NCBI RefSeq assembly: GCF_010500245.1
Contig: NZ_JAAGOX010000054.1
Coordinates: 62,001 to 126,000 of the forward strand
Length of the DNA: 64,000 nucleotides
DNA from: Ruegeria sp. PrR005
GTDB taxonomy: Bacteria; Pseudomonadota; Alphaproteobacteria; Rhodobacterales; Rhodobacteraceae
Direction of reading: 5' to 3'
Below, piece by piece: positions 4,515-61,358 of this stretch. How positions within the stretch are numbered: the stretch's first letter is position 1; each line of letters begins with the position of its first letter. Under the pieces are notes generated by a model that saw only the letters and a program-made list of their open reading frames with translations, made no database searches and was not told the origin of the DNA. The position numbers and the translations under genes are program-made.

Positions 4515-4567
4515 GCCCCGGGGCGCTGCCCCGGACCCCGGAGTATTTCGACCAGAAAGAAGCCAGA
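4515..4567 (-). repeat. Dispersed intergenic repeat, copy 1 (short type)
   Basis: It lies between the converging UbiH-like and aminotransferase genes. On the minus strand it reads CTTTCTGG, then AAATACTCCGGGG, then the GGGGCAGCGCCCC hairpin. The variable middle hairpin is absent. It shares the ACCAGAAAGAAGCCAGA flank with copy 5 and, partly, copy 4. Confidence 0.8.
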
Positions 4568-4568
4568 G

Positions 4569-5696
4569 TCAGAGCACCTGGTCGAGCACGCGTTTCAGCC
4601 GGTCAATCGTACCGTCGACATCATAGAGCTTGTCGAGTCCGAAGAGACCCAGCCGGAAGGTGCGGAAATCGACCGGTTCGTCGCATTGCAACGGTACCCC
4701 GGCCGCAATCTGCATACCCAGGGCCACGAATTTTTTGCCGTTCTGGATATCGGGGTCGCTGGTATAGCTCACCACCACGCCCGGGGCGCCAAACCCTTCG
4801 GCGGCGACCGAAACGATGCCCTTGCCCTTGAGCAGCGCGCGCACCCCGTTGCCCAACGCCCATTGCGCGTCGCGTAGTTTGTCGAAGCCATAGTCGCGGG
4901 TTTCGGCCATGGTGTCGCGGAAGGCGCGCAGCGCATCGGTGGGCATGGTGGCGTGATAGGCATGCCCACCACCCTCGTAGGCCTTCATTATGTCGCGCCA
5001 TTTCTTCAGGTCGACAGCGAAACTGTCTGATTGAGTCTCAGCCAGCCGCGCCTCTCCCCGTTCGGACAGCATCACCAGTCCCGCGCAGGGCGAAGCGCTC
5101 CAGCCCTTTTGCGGCGCCGAGATCAGTACGTCGACGCCGGTCGCCTTCATGTCGACCCAGACGCAGCCCGAGGCGATACAATCGAGCACCATCAGCGCGC
5201 CCACCTCATGCGCGGCGGCCGCCATGGCGGTGATGTAATCGTCGGGCAGGATCACCCCGGCGGCGGTTTCCACATGCGGGGCAAAGACCACATCGGGTTT
5301 TTGCTCACGGATGGCCGCCACAACATCCTCGATCGGGGCCGGGGCAAAGGGAGCGGTGCTTTCGTTGCCGCTGCGGCGCGCCTTCATCACCGTTGTCTCT
5401 GACGTCAGGCTGCCGGTCTCGATGATCTGGCTCCAGCGGTACGAGAACCAGCCGTTTCGCACCACCAGCACGCGCGCGCCTCGGGCGAACTGGCGTGCGA
5501 CCGCCTCCATCGCATAAGTGCCACCGCCCGGGATGATGGCGACCCCATCGGCATTGTAGACCGTGCGCAGCATCTCCGAGATATCGCGCATCACCTGCTG
5601 AAAACTGGCCGACATATGGTTGAGCGAGCGGTCGGTAAAAACGACTGAGAACTCTTCGAGCCCATTGGGATCGACGGTATCAAGCAGGGCAGGCAT
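4569..5696 (-). CDS. Class V (alanine-glyoxylate type) PLP aminotransferase
   Basis: A 375-residue fold-type I aminotransferase. The PLP lysine lies in LISAPQKGWSAS (about residue 195), preceded by LDCIASGCVWVDM with the cofactor aspartate. GGGTYAMEAVARQF near residue 57 is the phosphate-binding turn. Relatives act on alanine, serine or phosphonate-derived amines with glyoxylate or pyruvate as acceptor; the substrate cannot be read here. The start at 5696 is favoured by AAGGA 7-8 bases upstream over an in-frame ATG nine codons earlier. It is flanked on both sides by the dispersed repeat and seems to be a single-gene unit. Confidence 0.82.
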   Translation of the reverse strand: MPALLDTVDPNGLEEFSVVFTDRSLNHMSASFQQVMRDISEMLRTVYNADGVAIIPGGGTYAMEAVARQFARGARVLVVRNGWFSYRWSQIIETGSLTSETTVMKARRSGNESTAPFAPAPIEDVVAAIREQKPDVVFAPHVETAAGVILPDDYITAMAAAAHEVGALMVLDCIASGCVWVDMKATGVDVLISAPQKGWSASPCAGLVMLSERGEARLAETQSDSFAVDLKKWRDIMKAYEGGGHAYHATMPTDALRAFRDTMAETRDYGFDKLRDAQWALGNGVRALLKGKGIVSVAAEGFGAPGVVVSYTSDPDIQNGKKFVALGMQIAAGVPLQCDEPVDFRTFRLGLFGLDKLYDVDGTIDRLKRVLDQVL

Positions 5697-5765
5697 GGGC
5701 GTATCCTTCTGAGGTTTGCCCAAAGACTACCCGCCCCGGCCCCAAGGTAAAGGGGCCAATTCGCA

Positions 5766-5836
5766 CTTCATCTCGCTGCAAGTACTCCGGGGTGAACTGG
5801 CCGAAGGCCAGGAGGGGCAGAGCCCCTCCCTCTGCC
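5766..5836 (+). repeat. Dispersed intergenic repeat, copy 2 (full type)
   Basis: It contains CTTCATCTCGCTGC, the core AAGTACTCCGGGG, a variable hairpin CTGGCC-GAA-GGCCAG and the closing hairpin GAGGGGCAGAGCCCCTC. It abuts the stop codon of hutU, so it may also terminate the hut operon. Confidence 0.85.
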
Positions 5837-7516
5837 TTACAGGATCGCCGGCAGGTTCAACCCATGCTCGCGGGCGCAGTCGCGGGCGATGTCATAGCCC
5901 GCATCGGCATGGCGCATCACGCCCGTCGCGGGGTCGTTCCACAACACGTTACCGATGCGCCGGTCGGCGTCCTCGGTCCCGTCGCAGCAGATCACCATGC
6001 CGGAATGCTGGGAAAAGCCCATCCCGACGCCGCCACCATGATGCAGCGACACCCAGGTCGCGCCCGACGCGGTGTTCAACAGCGCATTCAGCAGCGGCCA
6101 ATCGCTGACCGCGTCCGAGCCGTCCATCATTGCCTCGGTCTCGCGGTTCGGACTGGCGACCGAGCCGCTGTCCAGATGGTCGCGGCCGATCACGATGGGG
6201 GCCTTCAACTCGCCGTTGCGCACCATCTCGTTAAAGGCAAGCCCCGCCCGGTGCCGGTCGCCGAGACCAATCCAGCAGATCCGCGCCGGCAGGCCCTGGA
6301 ACGCGATCCGTTCCTGCGCCATGTCAAGCCAGCGATGCAGATGCTCGTTCTCGGGGAAGAGTTCCTTCATCTTGGCATCGGTTTTCAGGATATCCTCGGG
6401 ATCGCCCGACAGGGCGCACCAGCGGAACGGGCCGATGCCCTTGCAGAACAGTGGGCGGATATAGGCGGGCACAAAACCCGGAAAGGCAAAGGCGTTCTCG
6501 AACCCTTCGTCCAGCGCCACCTGGCGGATATTGTTGCCATAATCCAGCGTCGGCACGCCCGCGTTCCAGAAATTCACCATCGCCTCGACATGGGTGCGCA
6601 TGCTGGCCCGTGCGGCCGCTTCGACCCGTTTCGGGTCGCTCTCACGGGCCGCGCGCCATTCCGCCATGCTCCAACCCTGTGGCAGATAGCCGTTCAGCGG
6701 GTCATGGGCGCTGGTCTGGTCGGTGACGATGTCGGGGCGCATGCCGCCCGCCTGCATCCGGGCATAGATCTCGGGGAAGATATCGGCGGCATTGCCCAAC
6801 AGGCCCACCGATTTTGCCTCGCCCGCCTTGGTCCAGCGGTCGATCATCTCAAGCGCCTCGTCCAGCGTCTCGGCCTTTTCATCGAGGTATTTGGTGCGCA
6901 GGCGGAAATCGATCGAATCCGGGTTGCACTCCACGGCCAGACAGCACGCCCCGGCGAACACGGCAGCCAGCGGCTGCGCGCCCCCCATACCGCCAAGCCC
7001 CCCGGTCAGGATCCATTTGCCGGTCAGGTCACCGTTGTAATGCTGGCGTCCGGCCTCGGCAAAGGTCTCGTAAGTTCCCTGCACAATGCCTTGGGTTCCA
7101 ATGTAAATCCACGATCCGGCGGTCATCTGGCCGTACATAGCCAGGCCCTTTTTATCCAGCTCGTTAAAATGGTCCCAGGTGGCCCAATGCGGCACCAGGT
7201 TCGAGTTTGCGATCAGTACGCGGGGGGCATCCTTGTGGGTGCGAAAGATGCCGACCGGCTTGCCCGACTGCACCAGAAGGGTCTGGTCTTCGTCCAGGTC
7301 GCGCAGGCTGGCGACGATGCGGTCGAAATCCTCCCAGGTGCGCGCGGCCCGGCCGATGCCGCCATACACCACCAGTTCATGCGGGTTTTCGGCCACGTCG
7401 GGATGCAGGTTGTTCATCAGCATCCGCATCGGCGCCTCGGTCAGCCAGCTTTTGGCGGTGATCTCGGTGCCGGTGGCGGGATAGATGTCGCGGGTATTCT
7501 TGCGGGGATCGGTCAT
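5837..7516 (-). CDS. hutU: Urocanate hydratase
   Basis: Converts urocanate to 4-imidazolone-5-propionate, the second step of histidine breakdown, using tightly bound NAD+ as an electrophile. It is 559 residues, normal for the family. The glycine-rich NAD region [13 protein letters not shown] lies near residue 167. The C-terminal active-site block [17 protein letters not shown] lies near residue 490 and is followed by the conserved ADAGY. The start at 7516 is fixed by GGAGG five bases upstream and by the ATGA overlap with the hutG stop; an ATG four codons upstream would swallow the ribosome-binding site. It is the last gene of the leftward hutI-hutH-hutG-hutU operon. Confidence 0.97.
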
Positions 7517-8292
7517 GCCGGCCTCCATTCTGTGAGCAGGGTCAGGATCTGGGTGAGAGGAGCGCGCAGGCGGTCTGCGCGATCGGGCAGATAGGCCCAG
7601 GGCGCGGCCTCGGTCATATAGGAGGATTGCGCCAGTTCCATCTGGATGGCGTGTTGCCCTTCGGCCGGGCGGCCATAGTGGCGGGTGGTCCAGCCGCCCT
7701 TGAAGCGACCGTTGAGGATATGCGTGTAACCCTCTGCATTAGAACACATTTTCAACACACCGCATTCGATCTCCGCAGCGCAGGTCGTGCCCTCATTCGT
7801 GCCGATGTTGAAATCGGGCAAGGTGCCCTGGAACAGGAACGGGATATGGCTGCGGATCGAGTGGCAGTCGTAGAGCACCGCAAATCCGTGGATCGCGCGC
7901 ACCCGCTCCATCTCGGCCGTCAACGCCGCATGATAGGGCGCGTGCCAGGTGTCGCGGCGGTGCGCGATCTCGGCGGCGTCGGGTTCCTGCCCCGCGCGCC
8001 AGATCGGGTTTCCATCAAAATCGGTCAGCGGGCAGAGCGTGGTGGTGTTCTGACCGGGATAGAGGCTGACCCCCTCGGGGTCGCGGTTCACGTCGATCAC
8101 ATAACGGTGCACGGTGGTGCGCACCGTCGTTGCCGGGACCAGCCCTGCGTAAAGGTCGTGAATGTGCCAATCGGTATCGGCCAGCGCGCGGCCAGTGTCG
8201 TTCAGCCGCCCGGCAATTCCGTCGGGCAGATCGGTGCCGGTATGCGGCAGGCCCAGCACCAGCGGGCTGTCGGCGCGGGCGACCTCGATCAT
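7513..8292 (-). CDS. hutG: N-formylglutamate deformylase
   Basis: Hydrolyses N-formyl-L-glutamate to glutamate and formate, the last step of the HutF-dependent histidine pathway. At 259 residues it carries family features [11 protein letters not shown] near the N-terminus, [11 protein letters not shown], and [15 protein letters not shown] with likely Zn ligands. It is not the arginase-like formiminoglutamase that shares the hutG name in other bacteria. The presence of hutF next door supports the deformylase reading. It overlaps hutH by four bases upstream and hutU by four bases downstream, so translation is probably coupled. Confidence 0.95.
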
Positions 8293-11015: not shown

Positions 11016-11050
11016 CCGCGTCACATCTCCTCTTGCTGGCGGGTAACGTA

Positions 11051-11066
11051 TGTGAGTAATATCATT
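11051..11066. promoter_or_regulatory. Possible CRP-type half-conserved site in the hut promoter
   Basis: TGTGA-GTAATA-TCATT matches 8 of 10 core positions of TGTGA-N6-TCACA and lies between the divergent hutI and hutF promoters. Catabolite control of hut by CRP is known in enterics; here it is only suggested. Confidence 0.35.
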
Positions 11067-11078: not shown

Positions 11079-11089
11079 TAGAGGAAGAC

Positions 11090-19610: not shown

Positions 19611-19672
19611 CTTCATTTCGCCGAAAATACTCCGGGGGAGTCGCGCGTCCGCGCGACGGGGGGCAGCGCCCC
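19611..19672 (+). repeat. Dispersed intergenic repeat, copy 3 (full type)
   Basis: It contains CTTCATTTCGCCGA, the core AAATACTCCGGGGG, a variable hairpin GTCGCGCG-TC-CGCGCGAC and the closing hairpin GGGGGGCAGCGCCCCC. It sits between the EamA gene and converging glmM and reaches the glmM stop codon. Confidence 0.9.
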
Positions 19673-21025
19673 CTAGGCCGGCGCGGATACCGCGTCGGCC
19701 ACCGCCTCGACCACGCTGTCGACGGTAAGGGTCAGCAGCGCCTCATCCTCGCATTCGGCCATCACCCGGATCAGCGGTTCGGTGCCCGATTTGCGGATCA
19801 GCAACCGGCCCGAACCCTTGAGCGCCACCTCGGCCTCGGCAATCGCCCGCTGCACCGGCGCCATCTCCAGCGGCGCCTGCCCGGCGGCATAGCGCACGTT
19901 TTTCAACAGTTGCGGCACCGGCGCGAATTGCCGCGCCAGCGCGCTGGCGGGCTGGCCCGAGCGCACCATCTCGGCCAGAAAATGCAGCCCCGCCATCAGC
20001 CCGTCGCCGGTGGTGGCAAAATCACTCATCACGATATGGCCCGATTGCTCGCCGCCCAGGTTGAAACCGCCCTCGCGCATCCGCTCGACCACGTAGCGGT
20101 CGCCAACGGCGGTGCGCTCCAGCCCGATCCCCTGCCCGGCCAGATACCGTTCCAGCCCCAGGTTCGACATCACCGTCGCCACCAGCGCGCCGCCTTTCAG
20201 CTGCCCCTCGGCCGCCCAGCGCGCCGCCAGCAGCGCCATCAGCTGGTCGCCATCAGCGGGGGTGCCGGTCTCGTCGATCACGATCACCCGGTCCGCATCG
20301 CCATCCAGCGCGATACCGACATGGGCGCCATGCGCCACAACCTGCTCGGCCGCCGTTTGCGGATGGGTCGAGCCGCAGCCGCGATTGATATTCAGCCCGT
20401 CGGGCGCGATACCCACAGGGATCACATCGGCGCCCAGTTCCCACAGGATCTCGGGCGCGGCGCGGTGGGCGGCGCCATTGGCGCAATCGACCACCACCTT
20501 GAGCCCGTCGAGCCGCAGATCGCGCGGCAGCGAGGATTTCACCCGCTCGCCATAGCGGAACCGGGCATCATCCACCCTCTTGGCGCGGCCGATATTCTGG
20601 GCCTGCGCCGGGTGCACACCCTCTTCGATCAGCGCCTCGATCTCGATCTCGGCCTGGTCGGACAGCTTGAACCCGTCCGGGCCAAAGAACTTGATGCCGT
20701 TATCCTCGGCCGGGTTGTGGCTGGCCGAGATCATTACCCCAAGATCGGCCCGCATCGAGCGGGTCATCAACCCGACGGCAGGCGTCGGCACCGGCCCCAG
20801 CAGCAGCACATTCATGCCGGTCGAGGTCAGCCCGGCAGTCAGCGCGCTTTCCAGCATATAACCCGACAGGCGGGTGTCCTTGCCAATAACAACCCGGTGC
20901 ACACCGCTGGCGTCGCGGCGGAAATAGCGCCCCACGGCGGCCCCGATCCTCAGCGCCATCTCGGCGGTCATCGGGTGGGTATTGGCGGTGCCCCGCACCC
21001 CGTCGGTTCCGAAAAGCTTGCGCAT
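19673..21025 (-). CDS. glmM: Phosphoglucosamine mutase
   Basis: Interconverts glucosamine-6-phosphate and glucosamine-1-phosphate for UDP-GlcNAc, hence peptidoglycan and lipopolysaccharide. It is 450 residues. The phosphoserine loop [12 protein letters not shown] places the catalytic serine at residue 102. The Mg2+ loop LDGDADR lies near residue 238, the sugar-binding GGEQSGH near 325, and the phosphate-binding [12 protein letters not shown] near 410. The N-terminus [11 protein letters not shown] is characteristic. It follows folP on the same strand, a glmM-folP proximity common in bacteria. Confidence 0.97.
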
Positions 21026-28000: not shown

Positions 28001-28054
28001 CCGGGGAAATGAGTATTTGTTACCAGAAAGAAGCAGCAGGGGGCGCCCGCCCGG
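28001..28054 (-). repeat. Dispersed intergenic repeat, copy 4 (degenerate)
   Basis: Between the glyS stop and the ppdK start. The plus strand keeps GAGTATTT and ACCAGAAAGAAGC plus a GC-rich tail GGGGGCGCCC, but the closing hairpin is disrupted. It is a decayed relative of copies 1 and 5. Confidence 0.55.
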
Positions 28055-36306: not shown

Positions 36307-36360
36307 CTGGGGGCGCTGCCCCCAGACCCCCGGAGTATTTCAGACCAGAAAGAAGCCAGA
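36307..36360 (-). repeat. Dispersed intergenic repeat, copy 5 (short type)
   Basis: Between the converging protease-like and ThDP-enzyme genes. The plus strand reads GGGGGCGCTGCCCCC, then CCCCCGGAGTATTT, then ACCAGAAAGAAGCCAGA. It has the same organisation as copy 1, in the opposite orientation to the full-type copies. Confidence 0.85.
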
Positions 36361-41571: not shown

Positions 41572-42357
41572 ATGCACGACAGTCTTGATCTCGACCGCTA
41601 TCCGCTGGATCGCCCCGGCAGCGCCGAATGGCAGGCGCTGGTCAACCGCTGCCGGGACGATCTGGCGCGGACCGGCATGTTCAACCTCGAAGGGCTGATG
41701 CGGGCCGAAACGGCAGCTTCCGAGACCGCCGCCCTGCTGCCGCGGTTCGCCAGCGATGCCTTCCTGCACGAGCGGATGCACAACATCTATTTCAAACCGG
41801 TCGCCGACCTGCCGCCGGATCACCCCGCGTTGCGCCGGTTCCACACCTCCAACCGCACGCTCTGCGCCGATCAGCTTGGCGGTTCGGCCCTGTTGCGCCT
41901 CTATGACTGGCCCGAATTCGCCCGTTTCCTGGCCGCGACCATGGATAAGCCCGTGCTCTACCCGATGGACGATCCGCTCGCGCGGGTGAACGTGATGTCT
42001 TATCAACAGGGCCAGGCGCTGAACTGGCATTTCGACCGGTCCGAGTTCACCACGACGCTCCTGTTGCAGGCGCCCGAGGCCGGCGGCGGCTTTGAATACC
42101 GCACCGACCTGCGCAGCGATGCCAATCCCAATTACGACGGCGTCGCCCGCCTGCTGGCCGGAGACGACCCCGACGCCCGCACCATCACGCTCAGCCCCGG
42201 CACCCTGAACGTGTTCCGGGGCCGCAACACCGCCCACCGCGTCACGCCCGTCGAGGGCGCCCGCGCCCGGGTCATCGCCGTGTTTTCCTATTTCGAACAG
42301 CCCGGCGTAACCTTTACCGAGGCCGAGCGGACGGGCTTCTACGGGCGGGCAGGCTAA
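41572..42357 (+). CDS. 2-oxoglutarate/Fe(II)-dependent oxygenase, HalD/BesD-like
   Basis: 261 residues of jelly-roll type. The facial triad appears as NWHFDRSEF (His near residue 153, Asp near 155) and a distal histidine in NTAHRVTP near 222. The arginine that binds 2-oxoglutarate is likely in RARVIAVFSYFE. The segment around the first histidine resembles the BesD/HalD amino-acid halogenase family. In true halogenases the aspartate is replaced by Gly or Ala; here Asp is kept, so hydroxylation is expected. The substrate, perhaps a free amino acid, is unknown. AGGAGGTCGCCA precedes the ATG. Confidence 0.82.
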   Translation: MHDSLDLDRYPLDRPGSAEWQALVNRCRDDLARTGMFNLEGLMRAETAASETAALLPRFASDAFLHERMHNIYFKPVADLPPDHPALRRFHTSNRTLCADQLGGSALLRLYDWPEFARFLAATMDKPVLYPMDDPLARVNVMSYQQGQALNWHFDRSEFTTTLLLQAPEAGGGFEYRTDLRSDANPNYDGVARLLAGDDPDARTITLSPGTLNVFRGRNTAHRVTPVEGARARVIAVFSYFEQPGVTFTEAERTGFYGRAG

Positions 42358-42368
42358 AGCGGCCCGCC

Positions 42369-42432
42369 TTTCATCTTTTCAACACTACCCCCGGGGGAGG
42401 CGCCCAAAAGGCGGCGGGGGCAGCGCCCCCAC
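42369..42432 (+). repeat. Dispersed intergenic repeat, copy 6 (full type)
   Basis: It contains TTTCATCTTTTC, the core CTACCCCCGGGGG (diverged), a variable hairpin built on GCGCC-CAAAA-GGCGG and the closing hairpin GGGGGCAGCGCCCCC. It lies between the converging oxygenase and metZ genes. Confidence 0.75.
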
Positions 42433-42442
42433 TCCCCCGGCA

Positions 42443-43633
42443 TCAGCCCTGAGATACCGCCAGCGCCTGCCGCAGATCCGCCAGCAGATCGCCCGCATCT
42501 TCCAGCCCGACCGAGAACCGGATCAGCCCCGGCGTGATCCCCAGCGCCGCGCGCTGCTCCTCGCTCAACCGCTGGTGCGTCGTGGTCGCCGGATGGGTGG
42601 CGATGGATTTCGCATCGCCCAGATTGTTCGAGATCACCGGAATCGTCAGCGCGTTCAGAAACCGGAATGCCGCCGGTTTGCCGCCCTTGATATCCAGCGA
42701 CAGAACGGTTCCCCCCTTGCCACCCAGCTGCGTCTGCACCAGCGCGTTCTGCGCATGGCTCTTCAGCCCGGGATAAAGCGTGCGCGCCAGCGCCGGATGC
42801 CCTTCCAGCGCCTCGGCCAGCTTCTGCGCGGTCTCGGCCTGCGCATTGACACGCAACGCCATGGTCTCGATGCCCTTGAGCATGATCCAGGCGTTGAACG
42901 GGCTGAGCGCCCCGCCGGTATGTTTCAGATAGGGCTCCACCGTGCCCCGGATAAACTCGCGGCTGCCGATGATCACCCCGCCCAGCGCGCGACCCTGCCC
43001 GTCGATATGCTTGGTCGCGGAATAGACCACCACATCTGCGCCCTGTTCGATGGCGCGCGAGAAGACCGGTGTCGAGAACACGTTGTCCACCACCACCTTG
43101 GCGCCCACCGCATGCGCGATCTCAGCCACGGCGGTAATGTCGATCACCTCCAGCGTCGGGTTCGACATGCTCTCGAAGAACACCGCCTTGGTGCCGGGCC
43201 GCACCGCCGCCCGCCATTGCTCCAGATCGGTGCCGTCGACGAATGTCACCTCCACCCCGTAGCGGGTCAGGATATTCTCAAGGATATAAAGGCACGAGCC
43301 AAACAGCGCCTTGGCCGACACGACATGGTCGCCCGCCTTCAGCATCGACACCAACGCGCCATTGACCGCCGCCATGCCCGAGGCGGTGGCAAAGGCATCC
43401 TCGCCCCCCTCCAGCGCCGCGATACGCTCCTCGAACATCGCCACCGTCGGGTTGCCATAGCGGGCATAGATGAACTCGTCCGGCCCGCATTCGATGAACC
43501 GCGCCTCGGCCTGTTCGGCGGTCTCGTAAACAAAACCCTGCGTCAGAAAGATCGCCTCGCTCACCTCGCCCCATTGGCTGCGGCGTGTGCCGCCATGGAC
43601 CGCCTGCGTGCGCTTGCTCCAATCCGTACTCAT
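42443..43633 (-). CDS. metZ: O-succinylhomoserine sulfhydrylase
   Basis: Makes homocysteine from O-succinylhomoserine and sulfide for methionine synthesis. It is a 396-residue Cys/Met-metabolism PLP enzyme. The PLP lysine lies in VVYSATKHIDGQGRALGG (about 205), with YARYGNPTV near 56 and the C-terminal RFSVGLEDAGDLLADL. The start MSTDWSKRT at 43633 matches the family and has AAGGA seven bases upstream. An in-frame ATG at 43711, directly after the riboswitch, would add 26 residues and is discussed separately. A SAM-II aptamer and a hairpin with a T-run lie in its leader. Confidence 0.95.
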   Translation of the reverse strand: MSTDWSKRTQAVHGGTRRSQWGEVSEAIFLTQGFVYETAEQAEARFIECGPDEFIYARYGNPTVAMFEERIAALEGGEDAFATASGMAAVNGALVSMLKAGDHVVSAKALFGSCLYILENILTRYGVEVTFVDGTDLEQWRAAVRPGTKAVFFESMSNPTLEVIDITAVAEIAHAVGAKVVVDNVFSTPVFSRAIEQGADVVVYSATKHIDGQGRALGGVIIGSREFIRGTVEPYLKHTGGALSPFNAWIMLKGIETMALRVNAQAETAQKLAEALEGHPALARTLYPGLKSHAQNALVQTQLGGKGGTVLSLDIKGGKPAAFRFLNALTIPVISNNLGDAKSIATHPATTTHQRLSEEQRAALGITPGLIRFSVGLEDAGDLLADLRQALAVSQG

Positions 43634-43666: not shown

Positions 43667-43703
43667 AAAGAAAAACCCCAATCGCGGGTCAAGCGAAAGG
43701 GGG
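43667..43703 (-). terminator. Leader terminator between the SAM-II aptamer and metZ
   Basis: On the minus strand CCCC-TT-TCGC pairs with GCGA-TT-GGGG around TTGACCC and is followed by TTTTTCTTT. The 5' arm starts right after the aptamer and can alternatively pair with the aptamer's own 3' strand (GGTC with GACC, AAA with TTT). Confidence 0.6.
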
Positions 43704-43716
43704 TCTTTCATCCTGA

Positions 43717-43770
43717 CCTTTTAGCGGTGATGTTTAGCGTGGCCCGCAATCCGGTAACAAATCGCCACGT
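43717..43770 (-). ncRNA. SAM-II riboswitch
   Basis: On the minus strand: CGTGGC, GATTTGTTACCGGATTGC, GGGCCACG, then TAAACATCACCGCTAAAAGG. P1 is CGTGGC pairing GCCACG. The conserved GATTT, ACCG-ATTGC and GCTAAAA-GG elements of the SAM-II (metA motif) pseudoknot are all present in order and spacing. It would sense S-adenosylmethionine and turn down metZ. Confidence 0.92.
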
Positions 43771-43916
43771 GGTTCCTGGGCATGGCGTTTACGCCCGCCG
43801 CCCGGTTCCGTCAAGCCCCGCAACGGCACCGTCACACAGATGTAATCGCCGCTTCATCCGCGCTTCATAGGCTTTTGCCAAGGCAGAACCACAAGTCTTG
43901 GGCGGGGGTCGGGCCG

Positions 43917-45604: not shown

Positions 45605-45676
45605 CTTCACTTTGCTGAAAATACTCCGGGGGTGAATTGGCCGCAGGCCAAGAGGGGGCGGCGCCCCCTGCCCCCC
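45605..45676 (+). repeat. Dispersed intergenic repeat, copy 7 (full type)
   Basis: It contains CTTCACTTTGCTGA, the core AAATACTCCGGGGG, a variable hairpin TTGGCC-GCA-GGCCAA and the closing hairpin AGGGGGCGGCGCCCCCT. It lies between the converging GST and DUF2726-like genes. Confidence 0.88.
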
Positions 45677-46459
45677 TCAGCGCATCCCGGCGCGCCTCCT
45701 GCCGCTGTCCTGCACCGGCAGCCCCAGCAGCGTCGACACCCGCGCCTCGATCTCCTCATCGGTCCAGGACGGCTGGATCTCCAAAAGTTCCACCCCGGCC
45801 CGCCGCAGCGCCTCGCGCTTGACCGCATCGCGCATGAAGGTCTTGTGGTGATAATGCCCGCTGCCCTGTACCTCCACCGCCACGGCAAGCATCCCAAAGG
45901 TGTCAACAATGGCGAAATCCAGCCGTTTCGAGTTGATCGAGGCAAAGGCATCCTGCCGGTCCCGCGCTGTCCCGGAACTGGAGACAGGTCGGATCAACTC
46001 GCCCATATTGGTCTGCGCCATAACCCGATGACCGCTGTTCGCCCCGTCGACGATCCGCTCCAGCAGCAGCAGCACCCGGTATTCGGTCCTGTTGAGCAGC
46101 CGGGTCTTTTCGAACCGGACCTTGGCAATTGCCGCCACCTGGTTTTCCGGTTCGGCCATCGACGGTTTTGCGACAGGCGGCGTTTCGACGGTCGGTCTTT
46201 CAACGGGGGGTTTGCTGCTGCCCGCCCTCGATGACGGGGCGAACCTGCCGCCAAACCGGCGCGTTCCACGCCAGCGTCCTCGCCTATGACGGCGCAGGGT
46301 CTCAACCAGCACGATGATCAGCACCGCCGCGATCAGAATCAAGGTGATCATGTGATCAGGCGAAACGCCCGTCTTTTCAACCAGTAAGTGTTTCATATCA
46401 AAAGAAGGACCAGCGTCTCGAATAGAACATCCCTTCACCAGACCAGGAATTTGCGGCAT
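45677..46459 (-). CDS. Membrane-anchored DUF2726-like protein
   Basis: A single N-terminal membrane helix (ITLILIAAVLIIVLVETL) and a basic/proline-rich linker precede a C-terminal domain. That domain has LLNRTEYRVLLLLERIVD, KRLDFAIVDTFGMLAVAVEV and KREALRRAGVELLEI. This is the DUF2726 pattern, thought to be a nuclease-like (restriction endonuclease fold) domain. The aspartate and glutamate positions DFAI and VEVQG fit such a core. The start is uncertain: ATG 46459, 46396 and 46351 all lack a well-spaced ribosome-binding site, and 46351 begins exactly at the membrane helix. Confidence 0.7.
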   Translation of the reverse strand: MPQIPGLVKGCSIRDAGPSFDMKHLLVEKTGVSPDHMITLILIAAVLIIVLVETLRRHRRGRWRGTRRFGGRFAPSSRAGSSKPPVERPTVETPPVAKPSMAEPENQVAAIAKVRFEKTRLLNRTEYRVLLLLERIVDGANSGHRVMAQTNMGELIRPVSSSGTARDRQDAFASINSKRLDFAIVDTFGMLAVAVEVQGSGHYHHKTFMRDAVKREALRRAGVELLEIQPSWTDEEIEARVSTLLGLPVQDSGRRRAGMR

Positions 46460-46489
46460 TTTTTCGGCGCCACTCCGCTCCCGGCAGAC

Positions 46490-48373
46490 CTATTCCGGCA
46501 AACCGCCGTCTTTCATCGCGTCAAAGTAACGATCCTGATCCGCCGGGTTCAGGAACGGCGTGTTCCTGTGCGTCGAAATCCTGAAATCAGGCCGGATTTC
46601 CAACAGCTTGCGGGCCTCTTCCCGCGCCTCCTCCAGACGTCCCATTTCCGCAAGGGTCGCCACCAGGATTCGGCGCGGCGGCAGCGATTTTGGATAGGTC
46701 GATATCCCGGCCTTCGCCAGCAGGATCGCTTGGTCGTAGTCCCTGAGAAAGAAATGCGCCAGTGCTGCGTTAAAGTTGTACCAGCCGGGATATCGCGGAT
46801 TGACCCGTTTTGCCTTGTTGTTCCACTCCAGCGCTTCTGCGGGCTCTCCCATCAGGAACCGCAGAAACCCCATGTCATACAGAACCTCCGGGTCATTCGG
46901 GTTGCCCTCTATCGCGCGCCGATAGGCAATGTAGGCCAGCTCGTGATCATGGTCGGCAAAAAGCTGAACCTGACCCAACCGATGCTGAACGCGGTAATCC
47001 GTCTGGTCCAGCTCCAAGGCCCGCGACAGGTGATCGCGCGCTTTGGCCAGGGCGGCGTCCGGGTCTTCGGCCCCGCCAAACCGCCACAGGCTCAGATACC
47101 GGCCCGACAGTTCCACATGCGCGGCCAGATACCCGGGGTCCAGGGCAACCGCCTGTTTCAGAAAATCGATCGCCTCCTGACGGCTTGCCGTGTTCAACAG
47201 CTTGCTTTTGGCGACCGCCCTCAGAAACAGGGCATAAGCCTCTGAATCCCGCGTCGGCCGCGTGCCAAGGGCGGCGATCTCCTCCTTCTCGATCTCGATC
47301 TCCAGGGTCGCGGCGATCTCTCTCACGAAATCCGCCTGCGCGTCGAACACATCCGCGATGGAAAACCGGTACTGGTCCGACCAGGCGGTATGCTCGGTTT
47401 CCGCCTCGACCAGTGCCGCCGTCACCGACAGCATATCGCCCCGTTTCAGGATGTTGCCGGACAGCACGTATCGCACACCCAGCGCGCGCGCGATGTCGCG
47501 CGGCCGTGTCGTGGTGTCCGCGAATGTGATCGCCGTCGATCCGGCGATCACGAAAAGCTGCGGAAACTTCGACAACTGGGTCGTGATCGCGGTGCCAAAG
47601 CCCTCGGCCAGATATCCGATCTCGGGATCGTCGGATGTGGTGGCAAACGGCAGGACAACGATCGACGGCCCGGACACCACCGGCTGCGCCATGTTGTCCG
47701 AACCGGCTATATCCGCCTCCGGGGCCCACAAGTGCCAGGACAGGACGGCGATCACCGCCAGAATCGCGCAACCGCCCACGATCAGCACCGGCCACCGCCA
47801 GGGCTTGGGGCGGCGGGCCGGGCGCGCGGGCCTGTCCGCCGCCAGCCGCTGCGCCCTTTCGTCCAGAACCACCTGAAAGACCGGAACCGGCCGGACGATG
47901 TTCTTGACCTGTATCTCTCCCAGATCCTTAAACCGCAGGTCCAGCTTGTCGCGCACCTGATCCCGGACGCTGCGGTGAATGCAGATGCCGCCGGGCTCGG
48001 CCAGCCCTTCGAGCCGCGCGGCGATGTTTACACCATCGCCATGAATGTCGTCCTCCTCGGCGATCACGTCGCCGATGTTGATGCCGATGCGAAAGGCGAT
48101 GCGGTCCTCTTCCGGCACCCCGGCCATCTGTACGGGCATCGCCTGTTGCACCGTGACGGCAAAACGGACCGCTTCGACGGCGCTGCCGAACTCCATCAGC
48201 GCGCCATCCCCCATCAGCTTGATCGTCTTGCCGCCATATGCGGCGGCCGCAGGATCGACGACATGGGACCGTATGGCCTTCAACGCCGACAGCGTCTCCG
48301 CCTCGTGCCGCTCCATCAGGCGGGAATAGCCGACGACGTCGATGCTCAATATGGTGGTAAGCCTGCGTCCCAA
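46490..48373 (-). CDS. Class III adenylate/guanylate cyclase with membrane helix, TolB-like and TPR domains (paralogue 2)
   Basis: 627 residues. The cyclase domain (about 1-165) keeps both metal aspartates (LSIDVVGYS, KLMGDGALMEF) and the GDGVNIAARL Asn/Arg pair. Unlike its two paralogues it has a membrane helix (about 190-212, WPVLIVGGCAILAVIAVLSW) that places the TolB-N-like part (VVLPFATTSDDPEIGYLAEG) and the TPR repeats (about 395-600) on the other side of the membrane. It could thus link a periplasmic signal to cyclic nucleotide synthesis. It is a single gene next to the DUF2726-like gene. Confidence 0.87.
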   Translation of the reverse strand: MGRRLTTILSIDVVGYSRLMERHEAETLSALKAIRSHVVDPAAAAYGGKTIKLMGDGALMEFGSAVEAVRFAVTVQQAMPVQMAGVPEEDRIAFRIGINIGDVIAEEDDIHGDGVNIAARLEGLAEPGGICIHRSVRDQVRDKLDLRFKDLGEIQVKNIVRPVPVFQVVLDERAQRLAADRPARPARRPKPWRWPVLIVGGCAILAVIAVLSWHLWAPEADIAGSDNMAQPVVSGPSIVVLPFATTSDDPEIGYLAEGFGTAITTQLSKFPQLFVIAGSTAITFADTTTRPRDIARALGVRYVLSGNILKRGDMLSVTAALVEAETEHTAWSDQYRFSIADVFDAQADFVREIAATLEIEIEKEEIAALGTRPTRDSEAYALFLRAVAKSKLLNTASRQEAIDFLKQAVALDPGYLAAHVELSGRYLSLWRFGGAEDPDAALAKARDHLSRALELDQTDYRVQHRLGQVQLFADHDHELAYIAYRRAIEGNPNDPEVLYDMGFLRFLMGEPAEALEWNNKAKRVNPRYPGWYNFNAALAHFFLRDYDQAILLAKAGISTYPKSLPPRRILVATLAEMGRLEEAREEARKLLEIRPDFRISTHRNTPFLNPADQDRYFDAMKDGGLPE

Positions 48374-48530
48374 GACCGTTCTCCCATAATAAGAGAGTAA
48401 CGATCACCGCGTTCCAAATCTACAGCGCGAAGGCTGGCGGTCGCCCAGGCGCAGGTCCAATGCCGGGCGGACCCGCAGACCGCAAGCCCCCGGGGCTGGC
48501 CAGGTCTCGCGTCAGGCAAGAGTCGAGGCT

Positions 48531-49061
48531 CTAGCCTTCGACCTGCACCGCGACCAGCCCCAGCTTGCGCGCGGCGGCCAGCGACAGGATCCCGCTATCG
48601 AGCCCCTGCGGCTTTTGAAAGCGGCGGATGGCGGCGCGGGTGCGGTTGTCCATCTCGCCGGTGACCGCGCCGCGATACATCCCGCGCGCGGCCAGCGCCC
48701 GCTGCACCGAGGCCACGAATTCCGGCGTCATGTCCTGCTGGCAGGGGGTTTCGAACCAGGTCTCCTTGCGCTCGCGCACGATCTGCTGCCGGGTCTCGGT
48801 CTTGTAGATCGCCGGACGCAGCACGGTGCCATCGGTCTGCACCTCGGCCGGCTGCATCAGCACCTGATGGGTCACCGTCTCGATGATCGCGGGCGTCACA
48901 TGCTTGCCCCAGCAGGTGCCGGGCGCCGCCCCCGGCGGCGCCACCTCGGTGAACCGGCTGACCTCGGGCTCGGCCAGCGCCTCGACATCCGGCAAGGCAC
49001 CGGAACAGGCGGCCAGACCGGCAAGCGCTAGCGCACACACAACGGGAAACACTCGGATCAT
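48531..49061 (-). CDS. Peptidoglycan-binding lipoprotein
   Basis: 176 residues. A type II signal peptide has the lipobox LAGLAACS (Cys about 19). A middle region contains two further cysteines. The C-terminal PG_binding_1 domain reads VQRALAARGMYRGAVTGEMD and TRAAIRRFQKPQGL. It is probably anchored in the outer membrane and holds the cell wall. The function beyond that is not visible. Confidence 0.82.
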   Translation of the reverse strand: MIRVFPVVCALALAGLAACSGALPDVEALAEPEVSRFTEVAPPGAAPGTCWGKHVTPAIIETVTHQVLMQPAEVQTDGTVLRPAIYKTETRQQIVRERKETWFETPCQQDMTPEFVASVQRALAARGMYRGAVTGEMDNRTRAAIRRFQKPQGLDSGILSLAAARKLGLVAVQVEG

Positions 49062-50943: not shown

Positions 50944-50954
50944 CCGCCCGGCCC

Positions 50955-51663: not shown

Positions 51664-51729
51664 TCCATCCTCTTGCCGGAAATATCCCGGGGGAGGCGCC
51701 CGGAACGGGCGGCGGGGGCAGAGCCCCCC
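51664..51729 (+). repeat. Dispersed intergenic repeat, copy 8 (full type)
   Basis: It contains TCCATCCTCTTGCCGGA, the core AAATATCCCGGGGG, a variable hairpin GCCC-GGAAC-GGGC and the closing hairpin GGGGGCAGAGCCCCC. It lies between the LuxR-type start and the purD stop, so not every copy separates converging genes. Confidence 0.82.
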
Positions 51730-51734
51730 TTACC

Positions 51735-54868: not shown

Positions 54869-55067
54869 CTGAAAACCTTTGTTTCCCATCAAGCGTGAAA
54901 TCGACGTCGAATGGTACATTTGACCGGCTTGGCATTCAAAGCCCTATTCTCCCATGGCAAGACGCCCGCCACTCAGCGCGACCGCGACCGGGATACTGCA
55001 TGTCCTCCAAGACACAGGCGAAGGTTTTCGATACTCTGCTCCCCATAGGCTCAAAAGAGGTTCCCCA

Positions 55068-55454: not shown

Positions 55455-55678
55455 CACCCCAGACGACAGGCCCCGTAGGGTGGGCAGTCTGCCCACCGCT
55501 GCTCCTTCCGATGCACCCCTCGTGAAGGCTGATCGCAAGCCCCAAACCGATGTACAAAACGGTCAATCCCCCTCTGCACACCGGTACAAAACGGTCAAAA
55601 CACAGCCTTCGCCCAACCTGCTTGGCCTTCTGCACCGACAGGTCTAATCTGGCCCGACAGGCAAATCAGGACACGGAC

Positions 55679-57804: not shown

Positions 57805-57807
57805 GCC

Positions 57808-57871
57808 CCTTCATCTCGTTGCAAAATACTCCGGGGGAATCGCCGCAGGCGATGGGGGCAGCGCCCCCCTG
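57808..57871 (+). repeat. Dispersed intergenic repeat, copy 9 (full type)
   Basis: It contains CTTCATCTCGTTGCA, the core AAATACTCCGGGGG, a variable hairpin ATCGCC-GCA-GGCGAT and the closing hairpin GGGGGCAGCGCCCCC. It lies between the converging GST and the small secreted protein gene. Confidence 0.9.
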
Positions 57872-57878
57872 CCCGGCC

Positions 57879-58271
57879 TCAGACCCCGACATCCGGCCCG
57901 TAACAGAGCATCTCTTCTCCGATCTCCTCGGCCTCGTAGAGCTCGGTCTGGGTCGGGTCGCCCTCGAACTGTGCCACCAGACCACGGCCCGTATCGCGAA
58001 AGACCCAGCATTGGGGGTCGAAACGGTCCTCGTAAACGAAACAGATCTGCCCCGCCTGTTCGTACCAGACGCCTTCCTTGCACTCGCCATCCAGGAACGA
58101 CCAGATCACCCGCCGCCCGGACATGTACCGCTCGACCCCATAGGCGGTGCCGTCAAAGCCATAGAACAGCGTCTTGCCCTGCGTATAGCGGTCGAACTCC
58201 TCCGCCGACATGACAGGCTGCGCCAGCACCGGCGGCGCCAGCATCGCAAGAATCAGGGCCATTCGCATCAT
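57879..58271 (-). CDS. Small secreted protein of unknown function
   Basis: 130 residues with a signal peptide (MRMALILAMLAPPVLAQ). The mature part has MSAEEFDRYTQGKTLFYGFD, the pair DGECKEGVW and GQICFVYED, and QCWVF, giving four cysteines with LCYGP. It is rich in aromatics and acidic residues. I recognise a Rhodobacteraceae-type conserved periplasmic protein but no function. Confidence 0.72.
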   Translation of the reverse strand: MMRMALILAMLAPPVLAQPVMSAEEFDRYTQGKTLFYGFDGTAYGVERYMSGRRVIWSFLDGECKEGVWYEQAGQICFVYEDRFDPQCWVFRDTGRGLVAQFEGDPTQTELYEAEEIGEEMLCYGPDVGV

Positions 58272-58304
58272 GCGTTCAAGTTTGGCAGAAGCCGCCGCCG
58301 GGGG

Positions 58305-59303
58305 CTACTCACACTTCCCTGTGACCGCGTGAACCCGGGGGTCCATCACCCGCCGCCAGAGCGGCGGCACAGTGGCCAGAACCGCCATGATCGGCATCGC
58401 ATAGGGCCATTGCGGCATCTCGGGGTCCAGCCGCAACGCCGCGAAATCGCGGCTTGGGTTCTGGTGATGATCGGAATGGCGCGGCGCGTTCAGCATCATC
58501 GCCGAACTGTACCAATGCGGCGCATTCCAGGAATGGTGCGCGCGGGCCGGTTCGTATTTGCCATTGGCCAGGGTTTTGCGCCGCAGCCCGTAATGCTGGA
58601 TATAATCGGCCAGCAGTAGCTGTATCTGCGCATAGCCCGCCAACAGCAGCAGCACCAGCACCCCGCGCCCACCCGCCAGCAGCCAGGTCGCCGCCGCAAC
58701 CGCCCCCGCACCCAGCAGATACCCCCGATAGGGCGTCGCGCTCCTGCCGTCGCGCAGCGCGCGTTCCGCCGCCAGCCCGGCCCGGAACGAGCCGATCCAG
58801 GCGCGCGGCAGAAAGCTCCAGAACCCTTGCCCAAACCGCGCCGAGTTGGGGTCGCGCGGGGTTGCCACCCAGATGTGATGCACCCGCATATGGGCCGAGC
58901 TATGGTGCCCGAACAGCAGGCTGGTATAGATCGCCGCCCCCAGCCAGCGCTGCCAGCGGTCGCCCCGGTGGATCAGTTCATGCGCGTTCGAGTTCGACAC
59001 TTGCCCGAAACAGAGCGCCACTGCGACCCCCAGCGCCAGCGCCTGAACCCCGGTCAGCGGGCCATCGGCCAAAGCCGGGATCGCCATCGACAAAAGCGCG
59101 AAATGCGCCGCAGCCAAGACCAGCGGCAAGACCTGAGCCCCCGCCCAATCCGCCGCCCCCAGCGGCCGTACCGGCAGCTTGTCCATCACCGCCACATAGA
59201 CGGTCATCGAAATCAATGCGCCCCAGGCCCAGCCGCCCCCGATCAGGCAGGCGGCGCCCAGGACGACATAGGGCAACAGGCTGGCAACGACATAGCGATA
59301 CAT
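58305..59303 (-). CDS. AlkB-like membrane di-iron hydroxylase
   Basis: 332 residues with about six membrane helices and the histidine boxes of alkane 1-monooxygenases. These are NAHELIHRGD (about 106), SAHMRVHHIWVATPRDPNSA (about 134), NAPRHSDHHQNPSR (about 272) and the HYG motif DYIQHYGLRRK (about 231). Differences from classical AlkB are HELIHR for HELxHK, DYIQHYGL for NYxEHYGL, and a shorter chain than the usual ~400. Terminal hydroxylation of alkanes or another hydrophobic compound is likely. No rubredoxin or rubredoxin reductase gene is adjacent. Confidence 0.85.
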   Translation of the reverse strand: MYRYVVASLLPYVVLGAACLIGGGWAWGALISMTVYVAVMDKLPVRPLGAADWAGAQVLPLVLAAAHFALLSMAIPALADGPLTGVQALALGVAVALCFGQVSNSNAHELIHRGDRWQRWLGAAIYTSLLFGHHSSAHMRVHHIWVATPRDPNSARFGQGFWSFLPRAWIGSFRAGLAAERALRDGRSATPYRGYLLGAGAVAAATWLLAGGRGVLVLLLLAGYAQIQLLLADYIQHYGLRRKTLANGKYEPARAHHSWNAPHWYSSAMMLNAPRHSDHHQNPSRDFAALRLDPEMPQWPYAMPIMAVLATVPPLWRRVMDPRVHAVTGKCE

Positions 59304-59414
59304 GCGATCTCCAAATGCACCTGGCCCCTGCTTAACATCACGTCAGCCCGGCGAAAATCCCTTGCCCGCATCCTACCTCCCAAGCCACCCTGTCCCAAAG
59401 ACCGGAGGACCCCC

Positions 59415-60053
59415 GTGACCCAGACCCTGTTCCTTGGCGCCGCCGCCTGCGCGCTGGCCTATCTGGCGCTCACCGCCCGCCCCACCAGCCTGACGCGCAG
59501 CGCGGTCAAGACTGCCTCGGTGGCGCTGCTTGCGCTGATGGTGCTGGCCGCGGGCGGACCTGTGCTGCTGGTACTGTCGTTGGCCCTCTGCGCGCTTGGC
59601 GACTGGCTCCTCTCGCGCGAGACAGAGGCCACCTTCATGGCGGGCGTCGGCGCCTTTGCCGCAGGCCATCTGGCCTATGTCGCCCTGTTCCTGACGCACG
59701 CCGCCAGCGAGACCGCACGCCTCGCCGCAGAGTGGCCGCTGGTCGCGGCCCTTGCGGTGCTGGGACTGGTGATGGCCAGCCTGCTCGGCCCCCGCGCGGG
59801 CGCGCTCAAGGGGCCCGTGCTGGCCTATATCCCGATCATTCTCGGCATGGGGCTGGCCGCGCTGACCCTTCCACAGTCGGGCATGCTGGCCTGGGTGCTG
59901 CCTGCGGCGGCCGCCTTCATCGCCTCGGACATGATCCTAGCGACCGAGAAATTCCTGCTGCCGCCCGGCCACCCGGCCCTGCGCCTGACGCCCTATCTGG
60001 TCTGGCCACTCTATTGGGGCGCGCAGATGGGCTTTGCCCTTGCGCTCACCTGA
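59415..60053 (+). CDS. YhhN/TMEM86-family (lysoplasmalogenase-like) membrane protein
   Basis: 212 residues, about eight helices. The family signatures are LALCALGDWLLSRE, GVGAFAAGHLAYVALF and ASDMILATEKFLLP, followed by LVWPLYWGAQ. Relatives hydrolyse the vinyl ether bond of lysoplasmalogens. It starts with GTG after GGAGGACCCC and is divergent from the AlkB-like gene, both acting on hydrophobic substrates. Confidence 0.87.
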   Translation: MTQTLFLGAAACALAYLALTARPTSLTRSAVKTASVALLALMVLAAGGPVLLVLSLALCALGDWLLSRETEATFMAGVGAFAAGHLAYVALFLTHAASETARLAAEWPLVAALAVLGLVMASLLGPRAGALKGPVLAYIPIILGMGLAALTLPQSGMLAWVLPAAAAFIASDMILATEKFLLPPGHPALRLTPYLVWPLYWGAQMGFALALT

Positions 60054-60114
60054 CCCTTTGCAACCGGCGCCAATCCGCATTAGGTGAGACAGGATCGCAA
60101 GCGGAGGCCCGGAC

Positions 60115-61290
60115 ATGGCGTTTTTCTCGAAACTCAAGGACCGTCTGTTCAAATCGTCCTCGAAACTCGAACAGGGGCTCGACGCCATTGTCGAGGATGG
60201 CGGGGTCGAGGAGACGATCACTGCGACCCAACCCGACCCGGTGATCCCCCAGCCCGACCCGGAACCGCAGCCGGTGCCGGAACTGCCCGACACGCCCGAA
60301 CTGCCGCAGCCCGAGCCGGTCGACCCGGCCCCGGCGCCGATGCCGCCCGAGGCGCCGCAGCCCATCGACCCGACTCCGCCCGCGGAAACCGGCACGGGCC
60401 GTGGCCTGCTCGGCCGCCTTTTCGCCCGCCCCGGCGGCGCGACCGTGGTCCGCCGCACGCTGGACGACGACATGCTGGAACAGCTCGAAGAGCTGCTGAT
60501 CGCCGCCGACATGGGCGTCGACACCGCCCTGCGCGTCACCGCCAACATGGCCGAGGGGCGGATCGGCCGCAAACTCTCGACGCAAGAGATCAAGGAACTG
60601 CTGGCGCAGGAAATCACCCGCATCATGGAGCCGGTCGCGCGCCCGATGCCGCTCTACCCCAAACGCCCGCAGGTGGTGCTGGTGGTGGGCGTCAACGGTT
60701 CTGGCAAGACCACCACCATCGGCAAACTCGCCAGCCAGTTCAAGGCGGCTGGTAAAAAGGTGGTGATCGCCGCCGGAGACACCTTCCGCGCCGCCGCCGT
60801 CGAACAGCTCCAGGTCTGGGGCGACCGCGCCGGCGTGCCGGTGCTGACCGCGCCCGAAGGCTCGGACCCCGCTTCGCTTGCCTTCGACGCCATGACCCGC
60901 GCTCAGGCGGACGGCGCCGACCTCTTGCTGATCGACACGGCGGGCCGGTTGCAGAACCGCGCCGACCTGATGGAGGAACTGGCCAAGATCGTCCGCGTCA
61001 TCCGCAAGAAGGACGACACCGCCCCCCACAACACGCTCCTCGTGCTCGACGCCACCACCGGCCAGAACGCGATCAGCCAGGTCGAAACCTTCCAGAAACT
61101 GGCCGATGTCTCGGGTCTGGTGATGACCAAGCTCGACGGCACCGCCAAGGGCGGCATCCTGGTGTCGCTGGCCGACCGTTTCGGCCTGCCGATCCATGCC
61201 ATCGGGGTGGGCGAACAGATCGACGACCTTGCCCCCTTCGACCCTCAGGACTTTGCCGCCGCCCTGACCGGCCTCGACACACAGGCATGA
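60115..61290 (+). CDS. ftsY: Signal recognition particle receptor FtsY
   Basis: 391 residues. An acidic, proline-rich A domain (about 20-100, repeated PQPDPEPQP-like units) precedes the N domain. The GTPase G domain follows with VVGVNGSGKTTTIGKLA (about 188), GDTFRAAAVEQLQVWGD, DTAGRLQNRADLMEEL and TKLDGTAKGG. It docks ribosome-SRP complexes on SecYEG at the inner membrane. Confidence 0.97.
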   Translation: MAFFSKLKDRLFKSSSKLEQGLDAIVEDGGVEETITATQPDPVIPQPDPEPQPVPELPDTPELPQPEPVDPAPAPMPPEAPQPIDPTPPAETGTGRGLLGRLFARPGGATVVRRTLDDDMLEQLEELLIAADMGVDTALRVTANMAEGRIGRKLSTQEIKELLAQEITRIMEPVARPMPLYPKRPQVVLVVGVNGSGKTTTIGKLASQFKAAGKKVVIAAGDTFRAAAVEQLQVWGDRAGVPVLTAPEGSDPASLAFDAMTRAQADGADLLLIDTAGRLQNRADLMEELAKIVRVIRKKDDTAPHNTLLVLDATTGQNAISQVETFQKLADVSGLVMTKLDGTAKGGILVSLADRFGLPIHAIGVGEQIDDLAPFDPQDFAAALTGLDTQA

Positions 61291-61301
61291 CGCTCCTCCC
61301 C

Positions 61302-61358
61302 CTTCATTTCGCCAGAAATACTCTCGGGGGGTCCGGGGGGCAGACAGCCCCCCGGCGC
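61302..61358 (+). repeat. Dispersed intergenic repeat, copy 10 (variant)
   Basis: It contains CTTCATTTCGCCAGA, the core AAATACTCTCGGGGGG and the closing hairpin CGGGGGGCAGACAGCCCCCCG. The middle variable hairpin is absent. It sits after ftsY and before the codirectional EamA gene. Confidence 0.8.

Follow-up and report, generated by a model that had tools for sequence, protein, structure and literature searches.

A structured, REP-like repeat at gene ends in Rhodobacteraceae genomes

In this study we describe a dispersed, structured repeat found predominantly at the ends of genes, ten copies of which lie in a 64,000-nucleotide stretch of bacterial DNA (contig NZ_JAAGOX010000054.1, positions 62,001 to 126,000; hereafter the window). 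An earlier note on the window had reported these copies as a structured intergenic family. All ten exist, the middle hairpins of the full copies read as the note quoted them, both a covarying middle hairpin and a bias towards gene ends are found, and the copies are members of one genome-wide repeat that is more numerous than the note had reported. Read 5′ to 3′, the element consists of a pyrimidine-rich head of ~12–14 nt that begins CTTC or TTTC, the core AAATACTCCGGGG, an optional and variable middle hairpin, and a terminal hairpin GGGGGC-AGC-GCCCCC (Table 1). We favour, at about an even chance, the reading that this is a family-wide mRNA 3′-end element that resembles the repetitive extragenic palindromes (REPs), is usable in both orientations and lacks both a REP-associated tyrosine transposase (RAYT) and an adjacent GTAG or CGTC tag. 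The family name Rhodobacteraceae is one that we infer from the named relatives of the window's purD, whose protein product shares 97% identity with its counterpart in Ruegeria sp. XHP0148 and 93% with the one in Ruegeria marina.

The element is abundant in the window's own genome (5.07 Mb), where the core with at most one mismatch has 85 matches, compared with 2 for the reversed pattern, and the head CTTCTTTCTGGT has 67, compared with 0. The exact core is present at 41 to 70 copies in each of the five genomes of the genus (controls, 0) and occurs in 111 of 248 genomes of the family, sampled at about one per genus. A degenerate core, AAATAYYCYGGGG, has at least one copy in 194 of these 248 genomes, five or more copies in about 141, and a maximum of 195; the reversed degenerate pattern matches in 25 of the 248, never more than twice per strand, and single degenerate-core matches therefore mean little. 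Among 289 genomes of the class the exact core is found in 6: the window's own genome and five others with one copy each, one of the five belonging to the same family. Ten plasmid records, from Paracoccus, Ruegeria, Roseinatronobacter, Marinibacterium, Leisingera and Tritonibacter, also match, and a search of phage records for the element gave no match. Six of the ten plasmid matches were opened; two lie where the record has no annotation, and the other four start 7 to 55 bases past a stop codon.

The earlier note had set apart a short type (the copies at 4515 and 36307 and the decayed one at 28001), with ACCAGAAAGAAGCC replacing CTTCATTTCG. This distinction does not hold. The three copies lie on the minus strand and carry the head CTTCTTTCTGGT at the usual 5′ place, and so are not a separate kind; we rejected a division into short-headed and long-headed types as one element read on two strands.

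Both arms of the middle hairpin change together, as the note had stated. Both our models derive from alignment A1, into which 33 of the 37 delimited copies went. Excluded, for divergence or an unusual shape, were L001, L005 and copies 6 and 10 of the window; for L004 and L015 the script located no end. A covariance model of the kind that the note had called for (R2, comprising the middle and terminal stems) was built and run. It gave 87 matches at E ≤ 0.01 across 1.98 Mb, taken from the own genome and one congeneric genome (G001), model-building sequences included; matches were found in all of the own stretches and in 36 of 60 G001 stretches. A further 103 matches lie in 71 loci of relatives that had been preselected for a core or an earlier match. 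All six pairs of the middle stem vary on both sides in both alignments. The covariation scores are 0.239 and 0.212, compared with means of 0.063 and 0.054 after shuffling, and none of 500 shuffles reaches the observed value; most of the signal is lost when the partner is shifted by one column. The alignments were fitted to the structure, which favours covariation; orthologous sites show the same without a model. The terminal stem is nearly invariant across the alignments, with 6–7 bp that are all or mostly G-C and a loop of 3 nt in eight of the nine window copies folded in the sense direction and of 5 nt in the ninth.

Mismatches in the middle stem, summed over both alignments, are asymmetric (24 G-U against 3 A-C; 71 G-A or A-G against 5 C-T or T-C), suggesting that the structure forms in RNA of the head-first strand. 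RNAalifold and several single folds pair the pyrimidine-rich head with the GGGG of the core and place AAATAC in the loop, which suggests a third, predicted hairpin; covariation cannot probe it, since the 3′ arm does not vary. Four G001 elements (S 383208, 405726, 1091619 and 1095669) share a distinctive AT-rich middle hairpin, CCTACAAAATTCG..CGAATTTTGTAGG, which gives the impression that the hairpin is copied as a cassette.

The position of the element relative to genes was assessed on script gene calls over 1.264 Mb of the own genome and 1.2 Mb of G001, with elements defined as profile matches at E ≤ 0.01 (46 own and 53 G001, at 42 sites in each). Of the 42 sites in each genome, 20 in the own genome and 22 in G001 fall in convergent gaps, which make up 13.7% and 16.7% of intergenic bases, respectively (p 1.3e-7 each); divergent gaps hold 2 own sites, where 31.5% are expected, and 1 G001 site, where 26.8% are expected. 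Taken together, 42 of 84 sites are convergent and 3 divergent. Counted as gaps of at least 60 bp that are occupied, the figures for own and G001 are 19/63 and 22/84 for convergent, 20/338 and 19/326 for tandem, and 2/161 and 1/131 for divergent gaps. Within tandem gaps, 33 of 39 elements are nearer the upstream stop than the downstream start (p 7e-6), namely 11 of 16 sense singles, 18 of 19 antisense singles and all 4 pairs. The bias towards gene ends about which the earlier note had asked is thus present both as convergent enrichment and as a pull towards the upstream stop. In the window itself six of ten copies lie in convergent gaps between called genes, as the note had counted, the copy at 28001 being below the element threshold and placed by hand. 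Its statement that most copies touch a stop codon is right as to proximity, nine copies (28001 excluded) lying −1 to 25 nt from the nearest stop, and a little too strong as to contact, since only copy 3 overlaps one.

How might such an element act? The upstream gene would be transcribed into it, and the RNA would fold into two or three successive hairpins: a possible head–core hairpin, the exchangeable middle hairpin and the constant GGGGGC-AGC-GCCCCC. These hairpins would fix the mRNA 3′ end by blocking 3′–5′ exonucleases after termination, and might perhaps help termination. Were either orientation to work, one copy could serve both genes of a convergent pair. Copies within one genome may exchange heads and middle hairpins in place, in a conversion-like manner, which would yield a head dialect per genus with the core and last hairpin fixed. 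A 3′-end element fits best because of the location bias in two genomes, the middle hairpin that is free in sequence and yet paired, the constant last hairpin and the absence of an orientation preference. The readings that the earlier note had offered (terminator, mRNA 3′-end stabiliser, mobile REP) are accordingly supported in part: a structured gene-end family is supported; a separate short type, mobility by a classical REP transposase (in the 15 genomes searched) and a canonical terminator, as stated, are not.

Several observations weigh against a 3′-end function. Chief among them is that much of the same bias would arise from a repeat that is tolerated nowhere but at gene ends. The element is present in only 3 to 4% of gene gaps (42 sites in each genome) and is therefore not a general 3′-end device, and 6 of 99 copies have their midpoint within a called gene. 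Tandem gaps show no orientation bias (16 sense and 19 antisense singles), although the mismatch asymmetry and the possible head–core hairpin suggest one functional strand; the same lack of bias fits the earlier note's description of the family as bidirectional. In convergent gaps the distance to the nearer stop is 8 nt, compared with 57 nt in a length-weighted random model; an unweighted random-placement model predicts 8.4 against the observed 8.0 (p 0.63), and tightness in these gaps is therefore not evidence. The mismatch asymmetry is carried mostly by a few recurring hairpin subtypes, and single copies often fold with energies that do not improve on those of shuffles (z −0.2 to −3.5, 11 folds). 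Finally, a comparison of sites between species was possible at only 5 of the 42 own sites. Function is favoured, though not proved, by the placement next to the upstream stop within tandem gaps and by the retention of the few sites that could be compared.

A canonical intrinsic terminator, one of the possibilities raised in the earlier note, is not supported in the sense direction, where the terminal hairpin is followed by T at +1 in 44 of 71 copies and then by G/C-rich sequence with no T-run; on the antisense strand two hairpins are followed by a short TATTT, which no constant stem adjoins. In a strict scan for canonical terminators, element-bearing gene ends were positive in 5 of 84 convergent and 3 of 39 tandem cases, and those lacking an element in 24 of 610 and 38 of 625, so that each class has terminators at 4 to 8% of its gene ends. 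It is nevertheless conceivable, if unlikely, that the element is a true intrinsic terminator for transcripts entering from the hairpin side, which would meet the hairpins and then CCCCGGAG-TATTT, so that a head-to-head pair would stop transcription from both sides. The antisense order of hairpin, hairpin, GGAGTATTT agrees with this, as do the 18 of 19 antisense singles nearer the upstream stop, the minimal variants of the form CTCC..GGAG-TATTTTT, and the close pairs, which are always head-to-head so that each outer gene meets a hairpin first. Such a terminator would, however, have a short U-tract interrupted by a variable NN; the GGAG of the core has, by eye, no constant partner across types; the sense direction has C, not T, after the hairpin, and yet sense copies are about equally common; and the strict scan is positive hardly more often at gene ends with the element than at those without.

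The pairs just mentioned were counted among 121 head-plus-core matches to five head motifs in 2.46 Mb. All 22 close pairs (<200 bp) are head-to-head, 19 of them with 11–19 bp between the CTTC starts, and 9 join two head types; 77 of the 121 heads lie outside any close pair. Three head-to-head pairs are 116–155 bp apart, not ~15 (C22 270656-270772 in the own genome, locus L079; L175 and L180 in G001). GGTACAGGCTGGNNAGCCGATGACCG lies between the heads of all three, and again near a lone head in L043, and is a second repeat nested with the gene-end element.

Could the element be a selfish repeat of the REP or miniature inverted-repeat transposable element (MITE) type, copied by some mobiliser and surviving mostly at gene ends, where insertions harm least? 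We regard this as possible, though less probable than a 3′-end function. A high copy number, presence on plasmids as well as genomes, genome-specific heads (see below) and the head-to-head arrangement of all 22 pairs, like the dimers of known REPs as the main text of PMC3733652 presents them, would all be expected of such a repeat, and purifying selection also predicts avoidance of divergent gaps. Against this, a search for Y1_Tnp (PF01797), other transposase families not being searched, was negative in 5 of 5 genomes of the genus and 10 of 10 copy-rich genomes of the family, with 5 of 14 control genomes positive. We therefore rejected a RAYT-driven REP in these genomes; the earlier note had suggested a REP-like element moved by an unseen transposase, and for the classical REP transposase this is not supported. 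No orientation is in excess at 200–4000 bp (3 head-to-head, 4 tail-to-tail and 5 tandem in 2.46 Mb), so that there is no surplus of outward-facing pairs able to enclose a parent gene, and neither a target duplication nor a clean empty site was seen among the few presence/absence cases examined. Covariation of the middle stem, and the retention between species of all five own sites that could be compared, likewise speak against a selfish repeat.

This retention was assessed at 262 gene pairs adjacent both in the own genome and in the G001 stretches, a comparison that replaced an earlier one with 0.8 Mb of G001 (193 pairs: 2 with the element in both, 2 in G001 only). The element is present in both genomes at 5 pairs, in G001 only at 2 and in the own genome only at 0; thus each of the five own sites at comparable pairs has a counterpart in G001. 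Inspection by eye shows a degenerate own copy at one of the two sites counted as G001-only (C11 248212); at the other, the own gap is no clean empty site but contains unrelated sequence. Heads or middle hairpins differ between the two genomes at most sites that carry the element in both; at C11 359488, for example, the own copy has the head CTTCTTTCTGGT with the middle hairpin GTCGCCGCCTGCGGCGAC, and that of G001 the head CATTTCGC with GGCCTACAAAATTCGACGAATTTTGTAGGCC. Around purD, 52 profile matches were found in 32 of 80 named loci, 17 of the 80 having one within ~300 bp of the purD end, and at this site R. marina carries the head CTTCTTTCTGGT where the window carries ATCCTCTTGC. Several Ruegeria (L096, L098, L104, L105, L106 and L108) have a different GC-rich hairpin repeat at the purD 3′ end, GCAGCCCGC..GCGGGCTGC (GCATC..GATGC), by eye another family in the same kind of place.

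Gene-content breakpoints relative to Ruegeria sp. XHP0148 coincide with two elements: a 2.8-kb segment of the window (45691-48531), missing from both XHP0148 and R. marina, starts 22 bp after the end of copy 7, and where the window has copy 6 (42356-42460) XHP0148 has 1.86 kb with one gene. Gene adjacency is broken at 10 of 12 element-bearing tandem gaps compared with 73 of 142 without an element (p 0.04), and at 8 of 11 convergent gaps compared with 9 of 17 (p 0.43); this is a weak test, and we do not claim that the elements are rearrangement hot spots.

Heads are uniform within and different between the compared genera, the core and last hairpin are constant, and the middle is free as long as it pairs. 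Over 12 nt, heads differ by 1.33 mismatches within genomes and 4.98 between them (30 elements from 6 genomes; 0 of 2000 shuffles), in six copy-rich genera with five loci each, the labels of three genomes being taken from listing order; the script anchored 2 of the 30 heads wrongly, an error that biases against the difference found. The 37 nt after the core are almost as different within genomes (20.3) as between them (22.0), although just 11 of 2000 shuffles reach that difference. Of 52 loci intended to represent one genome each, 47 yielded an element and 45 a head, and the first 11 nt of these 45 heads take 41 forms, some shifted by one base. The window's own genus is an exception to uniformity, with four head types in the own stretches and five in G001. 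A guess that G-rich heads go with C-rich cores was dropped, as only 3 heads lay behind it.

A dialect of this kind invites the very improbable alternative that the element is an address for a genome-specific trans-acting factor, whether a DNA- or RNA-binding protein or a system akin to DNA uptake sequences, with the hairpins secondary. The within- and between-genome head differences, the variety of heads across loci and the near-constant spacing of the pairs would suit it. With at most ~200 core copies per genome, the element falls far below the densities of known uptake sequences, and the mixing of four and five head types in the two genomes of the genus and of two types in 9 of 22 pairs also weighs against it. 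A related idea, which we consider a long shot, is that a trans-acting factor differing between genera would read the heads at tens to hundreds of gene ends, and that cassettes of head and middle hairpin would be re-written in place to keep pace with it, without a REP transposase.

Rhodobacteraceae are abundant marine bacteria and, to our knowledge, little is known about their mRNA ends; over half of the genera sampled have the repeat with at least five core copies. Its core is fixed, its hairpins are interchangeable, its heads are specific to the genus and no mobiliser is known for it. It therefore offers a tractable case for asking what keeps dispersed repeats uniform in one genome without a RAYT and what role REP-like elements play at gene ends, and RNA data that already exist can be searched with it as a marker of 3′ ends.

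Table 1. Copies of the element in the window, with the parts of copy 3
Feature	Position	Strand	Description
Copy 1	4517..4563	-	Head CTTCTTTCTGGT, core and terminal hairpin, no middle hairpin; convergent gap
Copy 2	5766..5829	+	Full; middle hairpin CTGGCC-GAA-GGCCAG; tandem gap
Copy 3	19611..19674	+	Full; middle hairpin GTCGCGCG-TC-CGCGCGAC; convergent gap
Core AAATACTCCGGGG of copy 3	19625..19637	+	Portion common to the whole family
Variable middle hairpin of copy 3	19640..19657	+	
Terminal hairpin of copy 3	19658..19673	+	Near-invariant
Copy 4	28005..28034	-	Decayed: head CTTCTTTCTGGT and AATACTC, no G-run, no hairpins; tandem gap
Copy 5	36308..36355	-	Head CTTCTTTCTGGT, core and terminal hairpin, no middle hairpin; convergent gap
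Copy 6	42369..42431	+	Core diverged (CACTACCCCCGGG); middle and terminal hairpins; convergent gap
Copy 7	45605..45669	+	Full; middle hairpin TTGGCC-GCA-GGCCAA; convergent gap
Copy 8	51666..51730	+	Core AAATATCCCGGGG; behind the stop of purD (purD on the minus strand); tandem gap
Copy 9	57809..57869	+	Full; middle hairpin ATCGCC-GCA-GGCGAT; convergent gap
Copy 10	61302..61353	+	Lacks the middle hairpin; one additional base in the core; tandem gap

The element looks undescribed: REP-like in kind, without a RAYT or an adjacent GTAG or CGTC tag. The earlier note had held that a match to a described REP or terminator family would remove its novelty. No such match was found in Rfam, where the window matches only SAM_alpha, elsewhere, at the gathering score, and copy 7 alone gives 3 chance matches far below the cut-offs; nor did searches limited to open-access papers, without supplements or figures, yield one with a title or abstract describing the element. 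The SAM_alpha (SAM-II) riboswitch lies at 43701-43778 on the minus strand, at the 5′ end of an O-succinylhomoserine sulfhydrylase gene. The main texts of the REP surveys PMC3733652 and PMC12306157 do not mention Rhodobacter, Ruegeria, Roseobacter or Paracoccus. The main text of PMC3733652 does report CGTC REPs in all alphaproteobacterial orders, which leaves some doubt as to overlap with a possible entry for Rhodobacterales, although the element differs in stem, loop and tag from the REPs that this survey describes.

Among known systems, the HRC-8-4 motif is likewise a terminator-like structure of Rhodobacterales; it is described in the main text of PMC8632094 as lying mainly at one locus between cco operons and is not dispersed. 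A MITE-like element of Paracoccus yeei, from the same order, is also intergenic and has an RNA fold but, going by the main text of PMC11578231, is 159 bp long, with IS1182-type terminal repeats, 4-bp direct repeats and 1–3 copies. REPINs (REP doublets mobilised with RAYT transposases) share the inverted pairs of near-fixed spacing; our element differs in that the 15 genomes searched gave no Y1_Tnp and 77 of 121 heads lie outside a close pair. The closest likeness is to the GTAG and CGTC REPs and bacterial interspersed mosaic elements (BIMEs), which are short and palindromic with an unpaired end, have many extragenic copies at gene 3′ ends and form head-to-head dimers; in the main text of PMC3733652, REPs lie downstream of genes in convergent and unidirectional gaps, mostly as such dimers. 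CGTC REPs are there, too, without a dedicated transposase, just as our element is without a Y1_Tnp in the 15 genomes searched. The fixed tag beside the terminal hairpin is absent from our element: within 6 nt 5′ of that hairpin GTAG occurs in 4 of 71 copies (2 per strand) and CGTC in 1 of 71, and CGTC anywhere in the element occurs in 16 of 71 antisense and 4 of 71 sense, mostly at the margin of middle stems of the GTCGC type (the counts exclude 28 of the 99 profile matches, in which the script did not delimit the core or hairpin). Where a REP is a single palindrome of 20–40 bp, our element has ~27 nt of head and core and one or two hairpins, and its terminal stem of 6–7 bp with a loop of mostly 3 nt contrasts with the 8–9 bp stems, A-T first pairs, 4–5 nt loops and CCA tail given for CGTC REPs in the main text of PMC3733652.

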